Shown one piece after another: positions 2,545 through 8,893 of a stretch of DNA of 15,462 bases. The stretch is taken from NCBI GenBank assembly GCA_031286975.1, contig JAITTM010000184.1, positions 1-15,462 on the forward strand, given 5' to 3'. Numbering within the stretch: the first letter of the stretch is position 1; each line of letters starts with the position of its first letter. The notes beneath the pieces are model-generated. The model saw nothing but the letters and a program-made list of their open reading frames with translations. It searched no databases and was not told the DNA's origin. The translations under genes were made by a program, and so were the position numbers. The DNA is from Coriobacteriales bacterium. Lineage in GTDB: Bacteria; Actinomycetota; Coriobacteriia; Coriobacteriales; UBA8131.

Positions 2545-5500
2545 ATGAAACAAGCTACAATGAGTCGCCGCACGTTTGTGAAATCTGCGGCAATCGCTGG
2601 TGCTGCGTTAACCGTGAGCTCTGCGCTTACCGGTTGCTTCGAGCAGACCACGCCATCAGATGATGGAGGATCAAAATCGCAGGTCGAAATGTACGTTTCG
2701 ATCTGCCACGGTTGTATCCAGGCATGTCCTTGCAAGGTGTATCTGGAGGACGGCGTGGTGGTCAAGATCGAGGGACATCCCGACGCCCCAACAAGCCAGG
2801 GTTCTCTCTGCATGAAGGGTCTTAACCAGATTCATACGTGCTACAGCCCTCGTCGTGTGCTGTATCCGCTTAAGCGCACGGGTGCGCGCGGAGCGAATAC
2901 CGCCGCTTGGGAGCGCATCTCCTGGGATGAGGCCGTGCAACTCGCCGCCTCGAAGATCGCGGAGACCATCGAGATGTATGGCACCTACTCGTTCTTCTGC
3001 TCGGTTGGCGGCGGCGGCGCCTACAGCTTCATGCAGGCTATGACCACCCCTATGGCACTCGGTTCACCCACGGTATTCGAGCCTGGTTGCGCGCAGTGCT
3101 ATCTGCCCCGTATCGCCATCGCCGGCTATATGTACAACGGTGCCGACCAGTCCATCGCCGACTGCGCTGTGCTTGAGCCCTTTAAGGGCCTTGCGCCGCT
3201 TGAGGCCGATAAAGGCGTTACGCAGGACACGAAGGTACTCGTGCTCTGGGCCGCCCAGCCGTCCGTCTCACAGACCGCCCAGTCAGGGCGCGCCATGGCA
3301 GAGCTGCGCGCGCGTGGTTGCAAGACCATCGTTGTTGACCCGAACTTCTCCCCGGACGCTGTTAAGGCGACCATCCATCTTCCCGTCCGTCCTGGTGCCG
3401 ACGATGCCCTTATCTTGGCATGGTATCGCATCATCCTCGACGAGAAGCTCTATGACGAGGAGTTCACCAAGTTCTACACCAACATGCCCTTCCTTATCAA
3501 CCCCGAGACCAAGCTGCCCTGGCTTGCCACGGATATCCTCCCCGACTACGAGTCCACCACCCCGGACGACACGCCGGACTATCTCTGCGTTGACGAGGAT
3601 ACCGGTAAGCTTACTGTGTTGCCCTTTGGTGACCCTGCAGTGCTCAAGACCTTTGTCAACCCGCAGGTGCTTGCGTCTATCGAGGTCAACGGTGTGCTCT
3701 CCAAGACCGCCGGCCAGATCTACCGCGATGAGGCCGAGCCCTGGACACTGGAGAAGGCCGAGGAGTTCTGCTGGGTGCCCAAGGATCGCATCCGTGCCGC
3801 CATCGACCTGTATGCCAGTGCAGAAGTCGCCGGTATCGCCAATGGTGTGGCATCCGACATGGAGGAGACCGCCTCTCAGGTACCGCTTGGTCTGTGCGGT
3901 CTCGATATGATCATGGGCTACGTTAACAAGCCCGGCGCGACCCTGACGCAAAACGGCCCGCTGCCCGCTGATGGCGAAGCCCCCCGCCCAACCCGTTTCT
4001 GGAATGGTTTTGGTGGCATGTTTGGTCAGATGTACGGCATCGGCTACGAGGTTGGTGCTACCAAGGAGGCCAACGAGGCTCGCATCGCCGCGATTCCTGA
4101 GGTCTGGGATCCCTCCATGGAGAGTGCGCCCTTCCGGACACAGGCGACCCTGTATGCGATGAACCAGCTGCTGATTGACCGCCTTGGCATGAAGAACCAC
4201 AAGGGTCTTTACGAGTGGTGCCACAGCCACATCCCCACCGTGCGTGAGGCCATCGAGACCGGCGAGCCCTTCAAGCCGCGCGTCTGGTTTGATATGTCCG
4301 GCAACAAGTTCGTCGTGCTGGGCAGCGCAGGTGCCTGGTACAACGCCATCATGAACGACGGCGTAGACTTCATCATCTGCCAGTATCCGATGATCACCTC
4401 CTTCCAGATCGAGGTCGCCGACCTCATCTTCCCGCTGGAAGAGTGGCTTGAGGCTACTGGCGCGTCCGAGTTCGGTCAGCTCAACTACGCCTTCCCCTCC
4501 CCAGGTGTCATCCATCTTGGCGAGACGGTGCCCAACTCCGTTCCACCCAAGCGTGTTATCGATGCTGCGTCCGCCCTTCTCAACGAGAAGCTTGACACCA
4601 TCACCTTTGGCGCCACGGGCAAGTCGATGACGGAGATGGGCTTGCAGTTCCCGCTCGGCCTAGGCGTTATGGGCGGCAACGATAGCGAAGATGCCATATG
4701 GGCAACCCAGATCGAACGGTTTGGTCCAGTTGTCGGTATTGCAGCAGACGCCACGGCGGCGGAGTACCTTGCCGCGGCCAAGAACCGTGACGATGCCTAC
4801 ATCGTCACACCGCCCGATCAGTATTGGACCTATGGACAGCACCTCGTCACGGCAGCAGACGGTCTGCCCGTGGGCTTTGGCACCGAATCACGCAAGTGCG
4901 AGGTCTACTGCACGCTCCTTCTCAAGATGGGCCGCAATGGCTTCCCCTATTGCTATCCGCGTGAGCAGGCCCCCATCGATCCGCGCGTGGGCACCTTTGG
5001 TGGCGACTACTCGCCCATCTGCAACGTACCGCAGCAGAAGGAAGCACCTGATGTTGCCAATGCCGGCAGCTTCACCGCTGGCTTCGATCCCGAGTTCCCG
5101 CTGGCGATGACCTCTGGGCGCGTGTACTACTTCCACCACGGAACCATGCGTCACTCGGCGTATGCCCGCGAGCTCTGCCCCGTTGCCCCCGTACGCATCA
5201 ATCCCAAGACCGCTGCCGAGTATGGCATCGCGGATGGCGACTGGGTCGAGATCTCCTCGCGCCGCACCCAAGGTGAGGCCTATGACCACACCAAGGTCAC
5301 CGGCACCGAGCTCTCATACTCCGGCACCAGGGAGCAGAACACCAAGACAGCTGAGCCTATCCGCACCATCGCCTACGTGGCCGAGGTCGTGGCTCCCAAC
5401 GTGCTGTGGATGGAGCGCTTCTGGAATCCGGAGTGCTTCGACTCATCACAGGGCACCAAGACCGGTGGTTGGCAGGAGTGCAACGTCAATGTCATCACCA

Positions 5501-5739
5501 ACGCGGTTGACCCGAACTTCAACGAGGTCTTTGGCTCCTACACCAATCGCGGCTTCCAGGTCAACATCAAGAAGTCGACAAAGCCCGATAACATCTGGTT
5601 CGATCCCAAGGATTTCACACCGTTCCTGCCCACTACTACCAATGAATATGCGCCCGATGATATCGGCGTAGCAATCAGCAACACGGCGCTCAATACGCCC
5701 ACCGTTGTCTTTCCAGCCCCCGCGGGAGGTGGTCAATAA
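2545..5739 (+). CDS. Tat-exported molybdopterin oxidoreductase, catalytic subunit (DMSO reductase family, catechol dehydroxylase-like)
   Basis: 1064 residues. The N-terminus carries a twin-arginine signal (SRRTFVKSAAIAG, residues 7-19) ending in a lipobox-like LTGC (C31). A [4Fe-4S] site follows as C54-x2-C57-x3-C61-x27-C89. Then come the molybdopterin oxidoreductase domains: the sequence around C182/C185 (PGCAQCYLPR) lies where the Mo-ligating residue is found in relatives, PGADDAL follows near the first pterin-binding region, and ADLIFPLEEWLEATGASE is a family-typical motif. The C-terminal region (from about residue 850) is a molybdopterin-dinucleotide binding domain. Length and layout resemble Eggerthella/Gordonibacter catechol dehydroxylases and the transhydroxylase group more than the shorter classical DMSO reductases (about 800). 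It would act outside the membrane, fed by the downstream ferredoxins. Substrate is unknown; the catechol assignment is inference. Its stop overlaps the next start (TAATG). Confidence 0.93.
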   Translation: MKQATMSRRTFVKSAAIAGAALTVSSALTGCFEQTTPSDDGGSKSQVEMYVSICHGCIQACPCKVYLEDGVVVKIEGHPDAPTSQGSLCMKGLNQIHTCYSPRRVLYPLKRTGARGANTAAWERISWDEAVQLAASKIAETIEMYGTYSFFCSVGGGGAYSFMQAMTTPMALGSPTVFEPGCAQCYLPRIAIAGYMYNGADQSIADCAVLEPFKGLAPLEADKGVTQDTKVLVLWAAQPSVSQTAQSGRAMAELRARGCKTIVVDPNFSPDAVKATIHLPVRPGADDALILAWYRIILDEKLYDEEFTKFYTNMPFLINPETKLPWLATDILPDYESTTPDDTPDYLCVDEDTGKLTVLPFGDPAVLKTFVNPQVLASIEVNGVLSKTAGQIYRDEAEPWTLEKAEEFCWVPKDRIRAAIDLYASAEVAGIANGVASDMEETASQVPLGLCGLDMIMGYVNKPGATLTQNGPLPADGEAPRPTRFWNGFGGMFGQMYGIGYEVGATKEANEARIAAIPEVWDPSMESAPFRTQATLYAMNQLLIDRLGMKNHKGLYEWCHSHIPTVREAIETGEPFKPRVWFDMSGNKFVVLGSAGAWYNAIMNDGVDFIICQYPMITSFQIEVADLIFPLEEWLEATGASEFGQLNYAFPSPGVIHLGETVPNSVPPKRVIDAASALLNEKLDTITFGATGKSMTEMGLQFPLGLGVMGGNDSEDAIWATQIERFGPVVGIAADATAAEYLAAAKNRDDAYIVTPPDQYWTYGQHLVTAADGLPVGFGTESRKCEVYCTLLLKMGRNGFPYCYPREQAPIDPRVGTFGGDYSPICNVPQQKEAPDVANAGSFTAGFDPEFPLAMTSGRVYYFHHGTMRHSAYARELCPVAPVRINPKTAAEYGIADGDWVEISSRRTQGEAYDHTKVTGTELSYSGTREQNTKTAEPIRTIAYVAEVVAPNVLWMERFWNPECFDSSQGTKTGGWQECNVNVITNAVDPNFNEVFGSYTNRGFQVNIKKSTKPDNIWFDPKDFTPFLPTTTNEYAPDDIGVAISNTALNTPTVVFPAPAGGGQ

Positions 5740-6398
5740 TGCCTAAGAGAACTCTGGTCATCGATCTTGATCGTTGTTCCGGTTGCGACTCCTGTGTGTT
5801 AGCCTGCAAGTTCTAGAACAACGTAGCACTTGGTAATTACTGGAACGTCGTGCAGCCCGTCGGCCCTGCCGGCACGCATCCCGACATCGAGATGTACTGG
5901 CTGCCCCTGCAGTGCCAACAGTGCGAGAATTCGCCCTGCGTCGCCGTGTGCCCCACGGGTGCGTCCTATCGCGATCCTGACAACAACGTCGTCCTGATCA
6001 ACAAGGAGGAGTGCATCGGCTGCAAGACCTGCCTGGGTGCTTGTCCGTGGAGCGACCCCGACGGTGCCAAGAAGCCCAGCGTGCGCTGGTTCAACGCAGA
6101 AGAGAAGGTTGTGGAGAAGTGCACGCTTTGCAACCACCTCACCGCAACGAGCGATGGCGTCGAGAACACACACGACACCACCGACTCCGCGCATGCTGTG
6201 CCGCCCTGCGTGCACAATTGTTCCTGCAAGGCTCGTCACTATGGTGACCTGGACGACCCCAACTCAGACGCCAGCAAGCTTATCGCTCAGGCGGAGGCGG
6301 ACGGTCGCAAGGTCTGTGCGCTCGAAGGCGAGGGCGCAACACCGGTGGCTCGCTACATCCTCTCAGAAGAGATCGCTGCTTGGAGAGGCTTGGGTTAG
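5739..6398 (+). pseudogene. DmsB-type four-cluster [4Fe-4S] electron-transfer subunit, interrupted by in-frame TAG at codon 26
   Basis: The ATG at 5739 overlaps the previous stop and has a strong Shine-Dalgarno (GGAGGT, 5725-5730, spacing 8), so this start is secure. The reading frame spans 219 codons, the usual size for DmsB/PsrB-type subunits, and has one internal stop, TAG at 5814-5816. All sixteen cluster cysteines are intact: C13-C16-C19-C23 before the stop; C59-C62-C67-C71, C92-C95-C98-C102 and C128-C131-C157-C161 after it. The protein would wire the NapG-like ferredoxin to the catalytic subunit. In many relatives the residue is Glu (pattern CKxEN), so GAG to TAG is a one-base change. 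Reinitiation at GTG 5850 would lose cluster I and has no Shine-Dalgarno. It is either a fresh pseudogene, a base-call error or a suppressed codon; I cannot tell which. Confidence 0.85.
5814..5816 (+). other. In-frame amber codon in the ferredoxin subunit
   Basis: The codons around it read Lys-Phe-TAG-Asn-Asn, three residues after the last cysteine of cluster I. The TAG lies in the middle of a perfect 10-bp palindrome, GTTCTAGAAC (5810-5819). The frame continues without another stop to the TAG at 6396-6398. Other genes in the window end in TAA, TGA and TAG, so TAG also serves as an ordinary terminator here. Confidence 0.95.
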
Positions 6399-6461
6399 TT
6401 ACGTAGTGCCCAGCGGTTTGTTGCAGCTTTGTTTGTCTTGCAACAGCGCTGCTGGTTAAGT

Positions 6462-6495
6462 CTGTGGTGGCGGAGCGCCCGCTCCGCCACCACAG
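6462..6495 (+). other. Perfect 15-bp stem-loop between the two halves of the cluster
   Basis: CTGTGGTGGCGGAGC (6462-6476) pairs perfectly with its complement at 6481-6495 around a GCCC loop. It lies 64 bases after the ferredoxin-subunit stop and 80 before the torD-like start. No T-run follows (GGCCTGAAAT), so it is not a standard intrinsic terminator. It could protect the 3' end of the upstream message, attenuate transcription or be a partial terminator that lowers expression of the maturation and electron-input genes. Confidence 0.65.
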
Positions 6496-6514
6496 GGCCT
6501 GAAATCTCAGTGAT

Positions 6515-6524
6515 AGGATATAAC
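6515..6524 (+). promoter_or_regulatory. Candidate internal promoter, -10 element
   Basis: AGGATATAAC, identical over ten bases to 1470-1479 upstream of the first gene of the cluster. It contains the -10 hexamer TATAAC 51 bases before the torD-like start. Upstream, both copies also share a GGGC followed by an A-rich patch, but no canonical -35. A promoter here would let torD and the two ferredoxin genes be made independently of the strong hairpin just before it. Confidence 0.35.
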
Positions 6525-6574
6525 AGAGCGCATCCCAAAAACAGGGGTCATCCGAAGAAATAACCATCGCCGAT

Positions 6575-7249
6575 GTGCTGGTCAATCGAGCAGCCATCTA
6601 TCGGATGCTTTCACGCATATACTTTAAGCCGCTGAGTGAAGAGGAGGTCGAGACCTTTGCCGCAATGGATTTTATCTCCCTTGCCGCGGATTTTGAGGGC
6701 GACGACCTGCTGGCTGAGGGCTTTAACGACATGGGGCGAGCCCTCAAGCGGCGCAATACCGGCACCCGGCAACAGCTTTCCACCGATTACACCATGTGCT
6801 TTGACGGCATCGACGCGATAGGTGAAGAGGTCGCGGTTCCCTATGCCAGCGTATTTTTGGGTGAATTCGCCTTGATGAACCAGGAGCCCTACCATAAGGT
6901 CTATAAGCTCTATCGCTCCGAGTCCGTCAAGCTCAAGGATTCTCTCAGGCTGCCCGACGACCATATCAGTTTTGAGCTTGAGTTCCTTGCCCTGCTCTCA
7001 GACCGTGCCGCCGCGGCGCTTAAAAACGATGAGCACGCCGAGGTTATCCGCAATTTTGAGTTGTCGCGTGAATTCATCAACGAGCACATCCTGAGCTGGT
7101 TTGACCTGCTTGCCGAGCGCGCCGAGAAGCTGCTCAAAACCCGCTTCTATCGGGGTGCCCTCAAGGTGACCAAGGGCTATCTGGAGCTTGATCTGCAAAC
7201 GATCGCAGACCTTATCGAGGCTTATTCCGATGAATGCACCAATGAATGA
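6575..7249 (+). CDS. TorD-like molybdoenzyme maturation chaperone
   Basis: 224 residues, mostly helical, of the TorD/DmsD/NarJ family. These cytoplasmic chaperones bind the Tat signal of a molybdoenzyme and hold it until the cofactor is inserted. Family features seen: NRAAIYRMLSRIYFKPL near the N-terminus, VPYASVFLG and PYHKVYKLYRSE in the middle, and the typical LPDDHISFELEFLALL. The obvious client is the catalytic subunit of this cluster. The start is uncertain. GTG at 6575 is the only in-frame common start after the stop at 6521, but has no close Shine-Dalgarno. An ATA codon at 6560 (reading ITIADVL) lies 12 bases after AGGGG (6543-6547) and may be the true or a former start. The 3' end overlaps the next gene by 20 bases, showing tight co-translation. 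Confidence 0.9.
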   Translation: MLVNRAAIYRMLSRIYFKPLSEEEVETFAAMDFISLAADFEGDDLLAEGFNDMGRALKRRNTGTRQQLSTDYTMCFDGIDAIGEEVAVPYASVFLGEFALMNQEPYHKVYKLYRSESVKLKDSLRLPDDHISFELEFLALLSDRAAAALKNDEHAEVIRNFELSREFINEHILSWFDLLAERAEKLLKTRFYRGALKVTKGYLELDLQTIADLIEAYSDECTNE

Positions 7250-7958
7250 AGCCCACCCAGAGCGCAACTCTGAATCAACAGCCAAAGACAAGGGAATCTC
7301 ACGGCGCAACCTGATTACGGGAGCTGCCGGGGCAGCCGTCGTGCTGGGCATGGGCGGTGCGGTGCGCGTGGTAGGTGGCACGGTGCCGCTCAGACCGCCG
7401 GGAGGGCAGGATGAAAGCCGCTTCATCGGCACCTGCATCCGTTGCGATCGCTGTAGGAGCATCTGCCCCCGCCACGCCATCAAGGGCTGCGGCATCGAGG
7501 ACGGCATCATAAATATGCGCACCCCCAAGCTCAACTACCGCATCGGGCGCATCACCTCCGGCTATACGCGCTTGCACGAGGCCGCCACTCCCTATGAGGG
7601 GCTTTTGGATGCGGAGGGCAACGGCTATTGCGACTTTTGCAACCTCTGTATCGAGAACTGCCCAACCGGCGCGCTGAGCGATTTTGACCCAGAGAGCGCC
7701 TGGATCGGCGTGGCCGCTGTGGTTCCCAACCTCTGCATCGCCTTTGATAAGCTGGGTGGCTGCCGCAAATGTGTGGACTACTGCGCCTTTGATGCGATCA
7801 CCCTCGACGAGGCCAAGCGCCCCGTGGTTCACCCCGAGAAATGCAACGGTTGCGGTGTCTGCGAGAACATCTGTCCTTCGAGCAGCTATCGCACATTCAC
7901 GAGTCGGTCTCGCCGTGGCATCAATGTCAACGTCGATGAGCAGGGGAGGCCGCAATGA
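7230..7958 (+). CDS. NapG-like Tat-exported ferredoxin with four [4Fe-4S] sites
   Basis: 242 residues from ATG 7230, chosen because GAGG lies 9 bases upstream and the Tat signal then begins near residue 24; an in-frame upstream start at 7188 would overlap torD by 62 bases, and ATG 7242 is an alternative. The signal reads SRRNLITGAAGAAVVLG. Four cysteine sets follow: C69-C72-C75-C79, C134-C137-C140-C144, C169-C178-C181-C185 and C205-C208-C211-C215, the NapG/MauM pattern. NapG with NapH forms a quinol dehydrogenase that passes electrons to periplasmic molybdoenzymes. It sits between the chaperone and the NapH-like gene with overlaps at both ends, so it is translated as part of a unit. No napA, napB or napC is nearby, so the name reflects family and not nitrate reduction. 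Confidence 0.92.
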   Translation: MNAPMNEAHPERNSESTAKDKGISRRNLITGAAGAAVVLGMGGAVRVVGGTVPLRPPGGQDESRFIGTCIRCDRCRSICPRHAIKGCGIEDGIINMRTPKLNYRIGRITSGYTRLHEAATPYEGLLDAEGNGYCDFCNLCIENCPTGALSDFDPESAWIGVAAVVPNLCIAFDKLGGCRKCVDYCAFDAITLDEAKRPVVHPEKCNGCGVCENICPSSSYRTFTSRSRRGINVNVDEQGRPQ

Positions 7959-8893
7959 AGATCACCCTCATAAGAAGGATCACCATTGCGGTCGCCTTTG
8001 TGGTGGTGGTTATTGGCTTGGTGTTCGATGCGGGAACCGGCACCTTCTCGTCCTTTGGCTGGCAGGCCATAGCGGCGATCTGCCCCCTGGGCTCACTGGA
8101 GAGCTTTCTTGCCAGCAGGACCATCTTTCCGCGCGCCCTGATCGTGCTGGCAGTTGCGCTGCTGCTCGTTGTTGTTTTTGGCAAGGTGTTCTGCTCCTGG
8201 TTCTGCCCGGTCGTGCCGCTCAGGAGCCTGTTCAGTCTCAAGACGTGGAAGAACCTGCTCGCCCGCAACAAGGGCGAAGCCACAAAAGACCCTGGGGAGA
8301 AACCCACGGCGCAATCTGACGCGCCGGCAGCCGCGTCGGCAGACGCGCGGGGATGTAAGGCTTGTACTTCTCCCTGTGCTTCAAAGCGTGCCAAGCTGGA
8401 CTCCCGCCATCTGGTGTTGGGTGGCACGCTACTCTCGGCGGCAATCTTTGGGTTTCCGGTCTTCTGCCTCATCTGCCCCATAGGGCTGACCTTTGGCACC
8501 GTTATTATCCTCTGGCAGTTTTTGGGCTTTAACGACCTCAGCCTGTCGCTGCTCATCTATCCGGTGCTCTTGGTGCTGGAGCTGGTGGTCTTGCGCAAGT
8601 GGTGCATGAAGTTCTGTCCGTTGGGCGCGCTGCTCTCGCTGATGAGCCTGTCCAACCGCTTTTTTCGTCCCAAGGTTGATGCCTCCAAGTGTCTCAGGGA
8701 GCAGGGAGCGGCTTGCAGCGTCTGTGTGGATGTGTGCCCCGAGAACCTTGACCCCCATTTTGCACACGGCATGAATGAGTGCAGCAAATGCGGACTCTGC
8801 GTTGACAAATGCCCCGCCACAGCGATACGCCTGCCCTTCAAGGGAGGCACCAGTGCCTCCTCGTCCGCGCCGGAAGCCCAAGAGCAGAACTGA
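7955..8893 (+). CDS. NapH-like membrane-bound ferredoxin (quinol dehydrogenase component)
   Basis: 312 residues. ATG 7955 overlaps the previous stop (ATGA) and follows GGGGAGG (7943-7949). About four to five hydrophobic segments (residues 7-24, 60-80, 152-172, 175-192, 196-214) carry the family motifs CxxxCP at C80/C84 and C217/C221 and CxxCP at C171/C174. The C-terminus has two ferredoxin sites: C246-C254-C257-C261 and C276-C279-C282-C286. NapH oxidises menaquinol and hands electrons to NapG. An extra hydrophilic loop (about 98-150) between the second and third segments contains CKACTSPC, three cysteines that could bind or relay an additional cluster. This gene closes the cluster; a short charged Ser/Ala/Glu-rich tail ends it. 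Confidence 0.92.
   Translation: MKITLIRRITIAVAFVVVVIGLVFDAGTGTFSSFGWQAIAAICPLGSLESFLASRTIFPRALIVLAVALLLVVVFGKVFCSWFCPVVPLRSLFSLKTWKNLLARNKGEATKDPGEKPTAQSDAPAAASADARGCKACTSPCASKRAKLDSRHLVLGGTLLSAAIFGFPVFCLICPIGLTFGTVIILWQFLGFNDLSLSLLIYPVLLVLELVVLRKWCMKFCPLGALLSLMSLSNRFFRPKVDASKCLREQGAACSVCVDVCPENLDPHFAHGMNECSKCGLCVDKCPATAIRLPFKGGTSASSSAPEAQEQN

Follow-up and report, generated by a model that had tools for sequence, protein, structure and literature searches.

A single in-frame TAG in a four-cluster ferredoxin gene of a Coriobacteriales draft genome, probably a recent loss of function, and pyrrolysine cassettes among its relatives

Does a single in-frame TAG in an otherwise conserved four-cluster ferredoxin gene mark the loss of an enzyme subunit, an error in a draft sequence, or a codon that the cell can read? 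The question is raised by a molybdopterin oxidoreductase operon in the stretch of 15,462 nucleotides analysed here (the window), the contig of which belongs to G000, a draft of 1.72 Mb in 230 contigs that is 76.5% complete. In the named collection, the loci closest to the window come from Coriobacteriales and Eggerthellales metagenome assemblies, several of them presumably of termite or cockroach gut origin, judging by their isolate names. Since the family of the window includes pyrrolysine users, it is fair to ask whether the codon is decoded in G000.

The ferredoxin frame and its operon

Translation of positions 5739-6398 of the forward strand yields 219 codons and a terminal TAG, the sole interior stop being the TAG at codon 26 (Table 1). 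The preliminary description of a single amber codon in a four-cluster ferredoxin frame is thus borne out, with the addition that the gene also ends on TAG. All sixteen cluster cysteines are present, as had been claimed, at positions 13, 16, 19 and 23; 59, 62, 67 and 71; 92, 95, 98 and 102; and 128, 131, 157 and 161 (the positions are computed, and their allotment to four motifs is our own judgement); two further cysteines lie at 163 and 193. The strong ribosome site and the coupling to the catalytic gene described earlier are equally apparent: the sequence GGGAGGTGG precedes the ferredoxin ATG, which shares one base with the stop of the catalytic gene. What the frame lacks is an uninterrupted reading.

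Table 1. Features of the operon, in positions of the window
Feature	Position	Strand	Remarks
Catalytic subunit, molybdopterin oxidoreductase (DMSO reductase superfamily)	2545..5739	+	1064 aa; Pfam Molybdop_Fe4S4, Molybdopterin, Molydop_binding
Four-cluster ferredoxin (beta) subunit frame, interrupted	5739..6398	+	219 codons, terminal TAG
In-frame TAG, codon 26 of the ferredoxin frame	5814..5816	+	Absent in 29/29 other loci
Longest open piece left 3' of the stop	5850..6398	+	182 aa from a GTG start; first four cluster cysteines missing
Strong hairpin between the ferredoxin gene and torD	6461..6496	+	16 pairs, one of them G-U; 4-base loop
Remnant of the torD start region	6510..6535	+	Start-site profile; AGGA retained; CAG (6524-6526) in place of the ATG of relatives
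TorD-like chaperone	6575..7249	+	GTG 6575 is the earliest ATG, GTG or TTG left in frame
NapG-like ferredoxin	7188..7958	+	Listed from TTG; real start probably farther inside
NapH-like membrane ferredoxin	7955..8893	+	

The four-cluster ferredoxin beta subunits NrfC, ArrB, TtrB and DmsB resemble the interrupted frame in their sixteen cluster cysteines and in the molybdopterin catalytic subunit encoded next to them. The present gene differs in being broken after codon 25 and, when read through, in falling under the curated cut-off of all 25 listed models among the 33 NCBIfam models that it matched, a comparison that included these four families; the best matches were NrfC (TIGR03149, 118 bits) and ArrB (117 bits). 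The piece downstream of the stop has solved relatives in 6cz7_B and 2vpw_B. A restart at GTG 5850 was rejected, being possible on paper, yet giving a product short of the first cysteine motif.

The catalytic subunit aligns along almost its entire length with relatives that are free of stops, and its nearest solved chains by sequence are those of thiosulfate reductase (2vpw_A) and acetylene hydratase (2e7z_A). Near its N-terminus it carries an RRTF motif, which we take to be of the twin-arginine type. The ferredoxin frame is followed by genes for a TorD-like chaperone and for NapG-like and NapH-like ferredoxins, in that order, and TAG 5814-5816 is the only stop within the frames of the operon. 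The hairpin between the ferredoxin gene and torD has a stability of about -34 kcal/mol as RNA, with no T run after it; a scan of the window against Rfam returned nothing at the gathering score.

Codon 26, sequence constraint and the torD start

A set of 31 loci was compared by tblastn; one of these is the window itself and another, L032, gave no match, leaving 29 others. None of the 29 has a stop at the equivalent of codon 26. Glutamate occupies the site in 25 of them, and valine, alanine, tryptophan or glutamine is found in the remaining four, which are distant paralogues. In a second set of 28 hand-picked loci, with those four paralogues left out, the codon specifies glutamate throughout (28/28). 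This set includes homologues from the pyrrolysine-coding relatives G009, G011, G012 and G019. The earlier remark that relatives often have glutamate here is therefore well founded. The check proposed with it was a comparison among sister strains; the loci available are homologues, and in these the stop is absent throughout. That 29 other loci align with the ferredoxin frame, none with a stop, shows that the frame did not arise by chance.

Relaxed constraint on the beta subunit was not found by dN along the window branch when G007, the nearest genome in sequence, served as sister. For nine of ten outgroups the window branch measured 0.044-0.068 against 0.040-0.061 for the sister, and for the tenth, L073 (115 codons), 0.037 against 0.083. 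Some other choices of sister and outgroup made the window branch longer (up to 0.097 against 0.046), and others made it shorter. Since the window branch is about as long as that of the sister, any loss is recent; judged from this comparison, a stop at codon 26, if real, must be very recent. Among 18 aligned rows, the beta subunit of the window shows only two private changes at otherwise invariant columns, namely the stop and V21L, five codons away. No excess of such changes was detected in the beta subunit, NapG or NapH, and the NapG- and NapH-like genes have open frames with few of them.

The situation at torD is different. Its frame opens after TAA 6521-6523 and then contains no ATG, GTG or TTG until GTG 6575, whereas each of the 17 related rows, which represent 15 different loci because two appear twice, has an in-frame ATG upstream of the corresponding position. 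A start-site profile was built from 14 related sites, with one ATG per locus picked by us where several existed. Applied to positions 6380-6699, it placed 6510-6535 at the top with 10.1 bits, the runner-up scoring 0.8; its own 14 sites range from 2.2 to 32.9 bits, and two of them (L068 and L071) score under the window. The AGGA and the codons that follow remain recognisable around the CAG at the start position. Because the region departs from its relatives by more than one base, it is not explained by a single miscall. In torD, the window also deviates alone at 6 columns that are otherwise invariant, against 0-3 such private changes in ten relatives; dN over the body of the gene, with G007 as sister, shows no clear rise (0.121-0.167 against 0.102-0.156). 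GTG 6575 has no clear ribosome site but could still start torD, and we therefore regard the change as a lesion of the start, not as proof of loss. Of the earlier statement that the chaperone and NapGH-like genes are intact, the part on NapG and NapH stands, their frames being open, and the part on the chaperone is doubtful.

In a separate case on a related contig, the NapH homologue at L066:7446-8276 contains one stop in its tblastn alignment and may be a further case of a disrupted gene, in a sister operon.

TAG in the family and in the source genome

PylB scored over its cut-off in six of the 33 family genomes, and PylS did so in the same six (L102-L107, that is G012:C20, G009:C73, G032:C57, G028:C6, G019:C201 and G011:C117). 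These genomes carry 11 methylamine methyltransferase genes with exactly one in-frame TAG each: five for MttB in four genomes, three for MtmB in three and three for MtbB in two. All five MttB rows over the cut-off have one TAG, and none of the 23 below it has a stop. The six MtmB rows over the cut-off comprise one TAG-bearing gene each in G009, G011 and G012 and three rows with no stop at all (a partial one in G024 and two in G011). All three MtbB rows over the cut-off have one TAG, and a single partial row below it has no stop. This co-occurrence makes the decoding of TAG worth a real test. A tRNA-Pyl was found in five family genomes at 96-105 bits, the next best score among the 33 being 34.0 bits; the model was built from the five that it recovers, which match by construction. 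G009 has PylC and PylD over cut-off as well. In G009, G012 and G028, the G+C content of the pyl stretches is close to that of the remaining contigs sampled from each genome, and in G009 it slightly exceeds all of them; a binning error is possible. As for precedent, PMC11764691 already reports 81 bacterial PylRS genes, two of them in Actinobacteria.

In the G000 draft, none of PylS, PylB, MttB, MtmB and MtbB was detected over its cut-off. The best PylS match reached 19 bits (cut-off 178), and similarly weak matches occur in 13 of 14 control genomes, with E values up to 0.001; the best PylB match reached 32.5 bits against a cut-off of 348. The three methyltransferases gave no match, so the draft holds no TAG-bearing methylamine methyltransferase gene. 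No tRNA-Pyl was found among the 150 of 179 first-look candidates that were scored, the best of which (31.9 bits) is a tRNA-Ser. ARAGORN called 24 tRNAs from 26 hits (two marginal ones were left uncalled and the set is incomplete), and none has a CTA anticodon. G026, the neighbour of G000 in the rpoB tree (support 81/92), is negative for both PylS and PylB. The search for pylS, pylT or an amber suppressor, which the preliminary description had proposed as a check, thus came back empty in a 76%-complete draft, and its option of a decoded TAG finds no support there. On present evidence G000 does not appear to be a pyrrolysine user, absence from an incomplete draft being no proof. The G019 draft illustrates this caveat: PylS, PylB and a TAG-bearing MttB are present and tRNA-Pyl is not, so that absence from a draft is weak evidence.

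The use of TAG as an ordinary terminator was also surveyed. In contig samples that are non-random, partly picked owing to hits in earlier searches, TAG ends 60 of 161 genes in G000 (and also the ferredoxin gene itself), 32 of 108 in G007, and 44 of 146, 26 of 118 and 15 of 86 in the pyrrolysine-positive G028, G009 and G012. The G000 share exceeds that of the pooled pyrrolysine-positive samples (85/350; Fisher p 0.003), but no excess is seen against G028 alone (p 0.23) or G007 (p 0.24). Terminator use is therefore weak evidence, since pyrrolysine-positive genomes also end 17-30% of their sampled genes with TAG.

A scan of about 205 kb of G000 for same-frame interruptions, which requires 50 codons or more on each side of the stop and would thus miss TAG 5814 and stops near gene ends, returned seven (3 TAG, 3 TAA and 1 TGA). 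None looks like a split gene: four were judged by eye from a methionine soon after the stop, two have different Pfam families on either side, and one has a ferredoxin downstream (only the downstream side was tested). The identical scan of three pyrrolysine-positive genomes gave six TAG interruptions, all within MttB, MtmB or MtbB, so it does detect recoded genes.

Explanations and implications

Taken together, these data are best accounted for by a recent loss of function, a nonsense mutation in an operon that is probably starting to decay (we put the probability at about 0.7). The points that speak for it are the absence of the stop from all 29 other homologous loci, the glutamate codon in all 28 hand-picked ones, the unrelaxed beta subunit, the lost ATG and the 6 private changes of torD, and TAG as a terminator; decay itself is read from two lesions only, the TAG at codon 26 and the torD start, with no excess of private changes in the beta subunit, NapG or NapH and no clear rise of dN in the torD body to add to them. 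The mutation, carried by the strain or its population, would cut the beta-subunit gene after 25 codons, TAG being an ordinary stop in G000. As the product would end just past the first cysteine motif, the four-cluster electron wire would not be made and the catalytic subunit would lose its electron partner, the electron route being taken from the family. The neighbouring torD, without the ATG that its relatives have, would fit an operon in early decay. We infer that the change is present in living cells and that the enzyme is off.

The preliminary description had offered recent inactivation, a base-call error and decoding side by side. Recent inactivation fits best the stop-free homologues, the lack of relaxed constraint and the torD lesion, and decoding has lost ground; error stays as a rival. 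A consensus or assembly error, with the gene intact in the cell, seems unlikely to us and yet has several points in its favour: the draft is fragmented into 230 contigs and 76% complete, a single codon is hit in an otherwise conserved frame, and V21L, only five codons off, is likewise private to the window in a column that is otherwise invariant. It is opposed by the torD start, which one miscall would not produce, and by the G000 interruption scan, blind though it is to stops near gene ends: with none of seven interruptions resembling a split gene, errors that create stops seem infrequent.

Decoding would take one of two forms, and we consider both very improbable. The lower odds go to pyrrolysine. 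G000 would be one of the family's pyrrolysine users, its cassette lying in the quarter of the genome that the draft lacks, and a cell that reads UAG as pyrrolysine in the presence of methylamines would tolerate a change from glutamate to UAG in a respiratory Fe-S subunit. The six cassette-bearing relatives with their 11 TAG-bearing genes, and the G019 example of what a draft can omit, are in keeping with this. It is contradicted by the G000 draft, in which PylS, PylB and the three methyltransferases stay under their cut-offs and tRNA-Pyl was not found, by the neighbour G026, negative for PylS and PylB, by the glutamate conserved at the site even in pyrrolysine-coding relatives, and by the gene's own TAG terminator. 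If true, it would place pyrrolysine outside the methyltransferases and tie a respiratory complex to methylamine supply. Hardly better placed is the idea that another amber-suppressor tRNA, or leaky read-through, yields some full-length protein. The frame beyond the stop is conserved, and the 26 tRNA hits fall well short of a complete set, which leaves room for an overlooked suppressor; against this, none of the called tRNAs has the anticodon, and with 60 of 161 sampled genes ending on TAG, efficient suppression would be costly.

Among known cases, nonsense pseudogenes resemble this locus in the lone stop within a conserved frame, in having stop-free homologues and in a second lesion, here at the start of the next gene; it differs from them in showing no relaxed constraint yet, which would be expected only of a very recent lesion, and in being known from draft sequence alone. 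The pyrrolysine-coding MtmB, MtbB and MttB genes of the family likewise contain one in-frame TAG each within a conserved frame, but their TAG is shared among homologues and their genomes encode PylS and PylB, neither of which applies to the ferredoxin gene. For annotation, the operon should be left out of counts of working reductases, and torD should not be called intact before its start is inspected. The case illustrates how an in-frame stop can be tested ahead of any proposal of decoding.

The ferredoxin stop is an ordinary finding, and the pyrrolysine cassettes in the relatives are the better lead. Their occurrence among the Coriobacteriales drafts of this family is patchy; automatic annotation would therefore split the methyltransferases at TAG, and stray in-frame TAGs need a genome-by-genome check. 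In G009, a 908-aa protein encoded between tRNA-Pyl and pylB (L103:3454-6180) resembles the corrinoid-activating AcsV and RamA, scoring under the cut-off of each. The tRNA-Pyl of G009 (L103) and G011 (L107) are alike and differ from those of G012, G032 and G028 (L102, L104 and L105), and G009 and G011 share the gene order corrinoid protein, MtmB, tRNA-Pyl. Pyl may have been acquired more than once in the family. Finally, the partial MtmB of G024 (L143; G024:C34:3481-4188), which is over the cut-off, begins directly after the usual TAG position; G024 is negative for PylS and PylB in a 51%-complete draft, and it may be a seventh pyrrolysine user.
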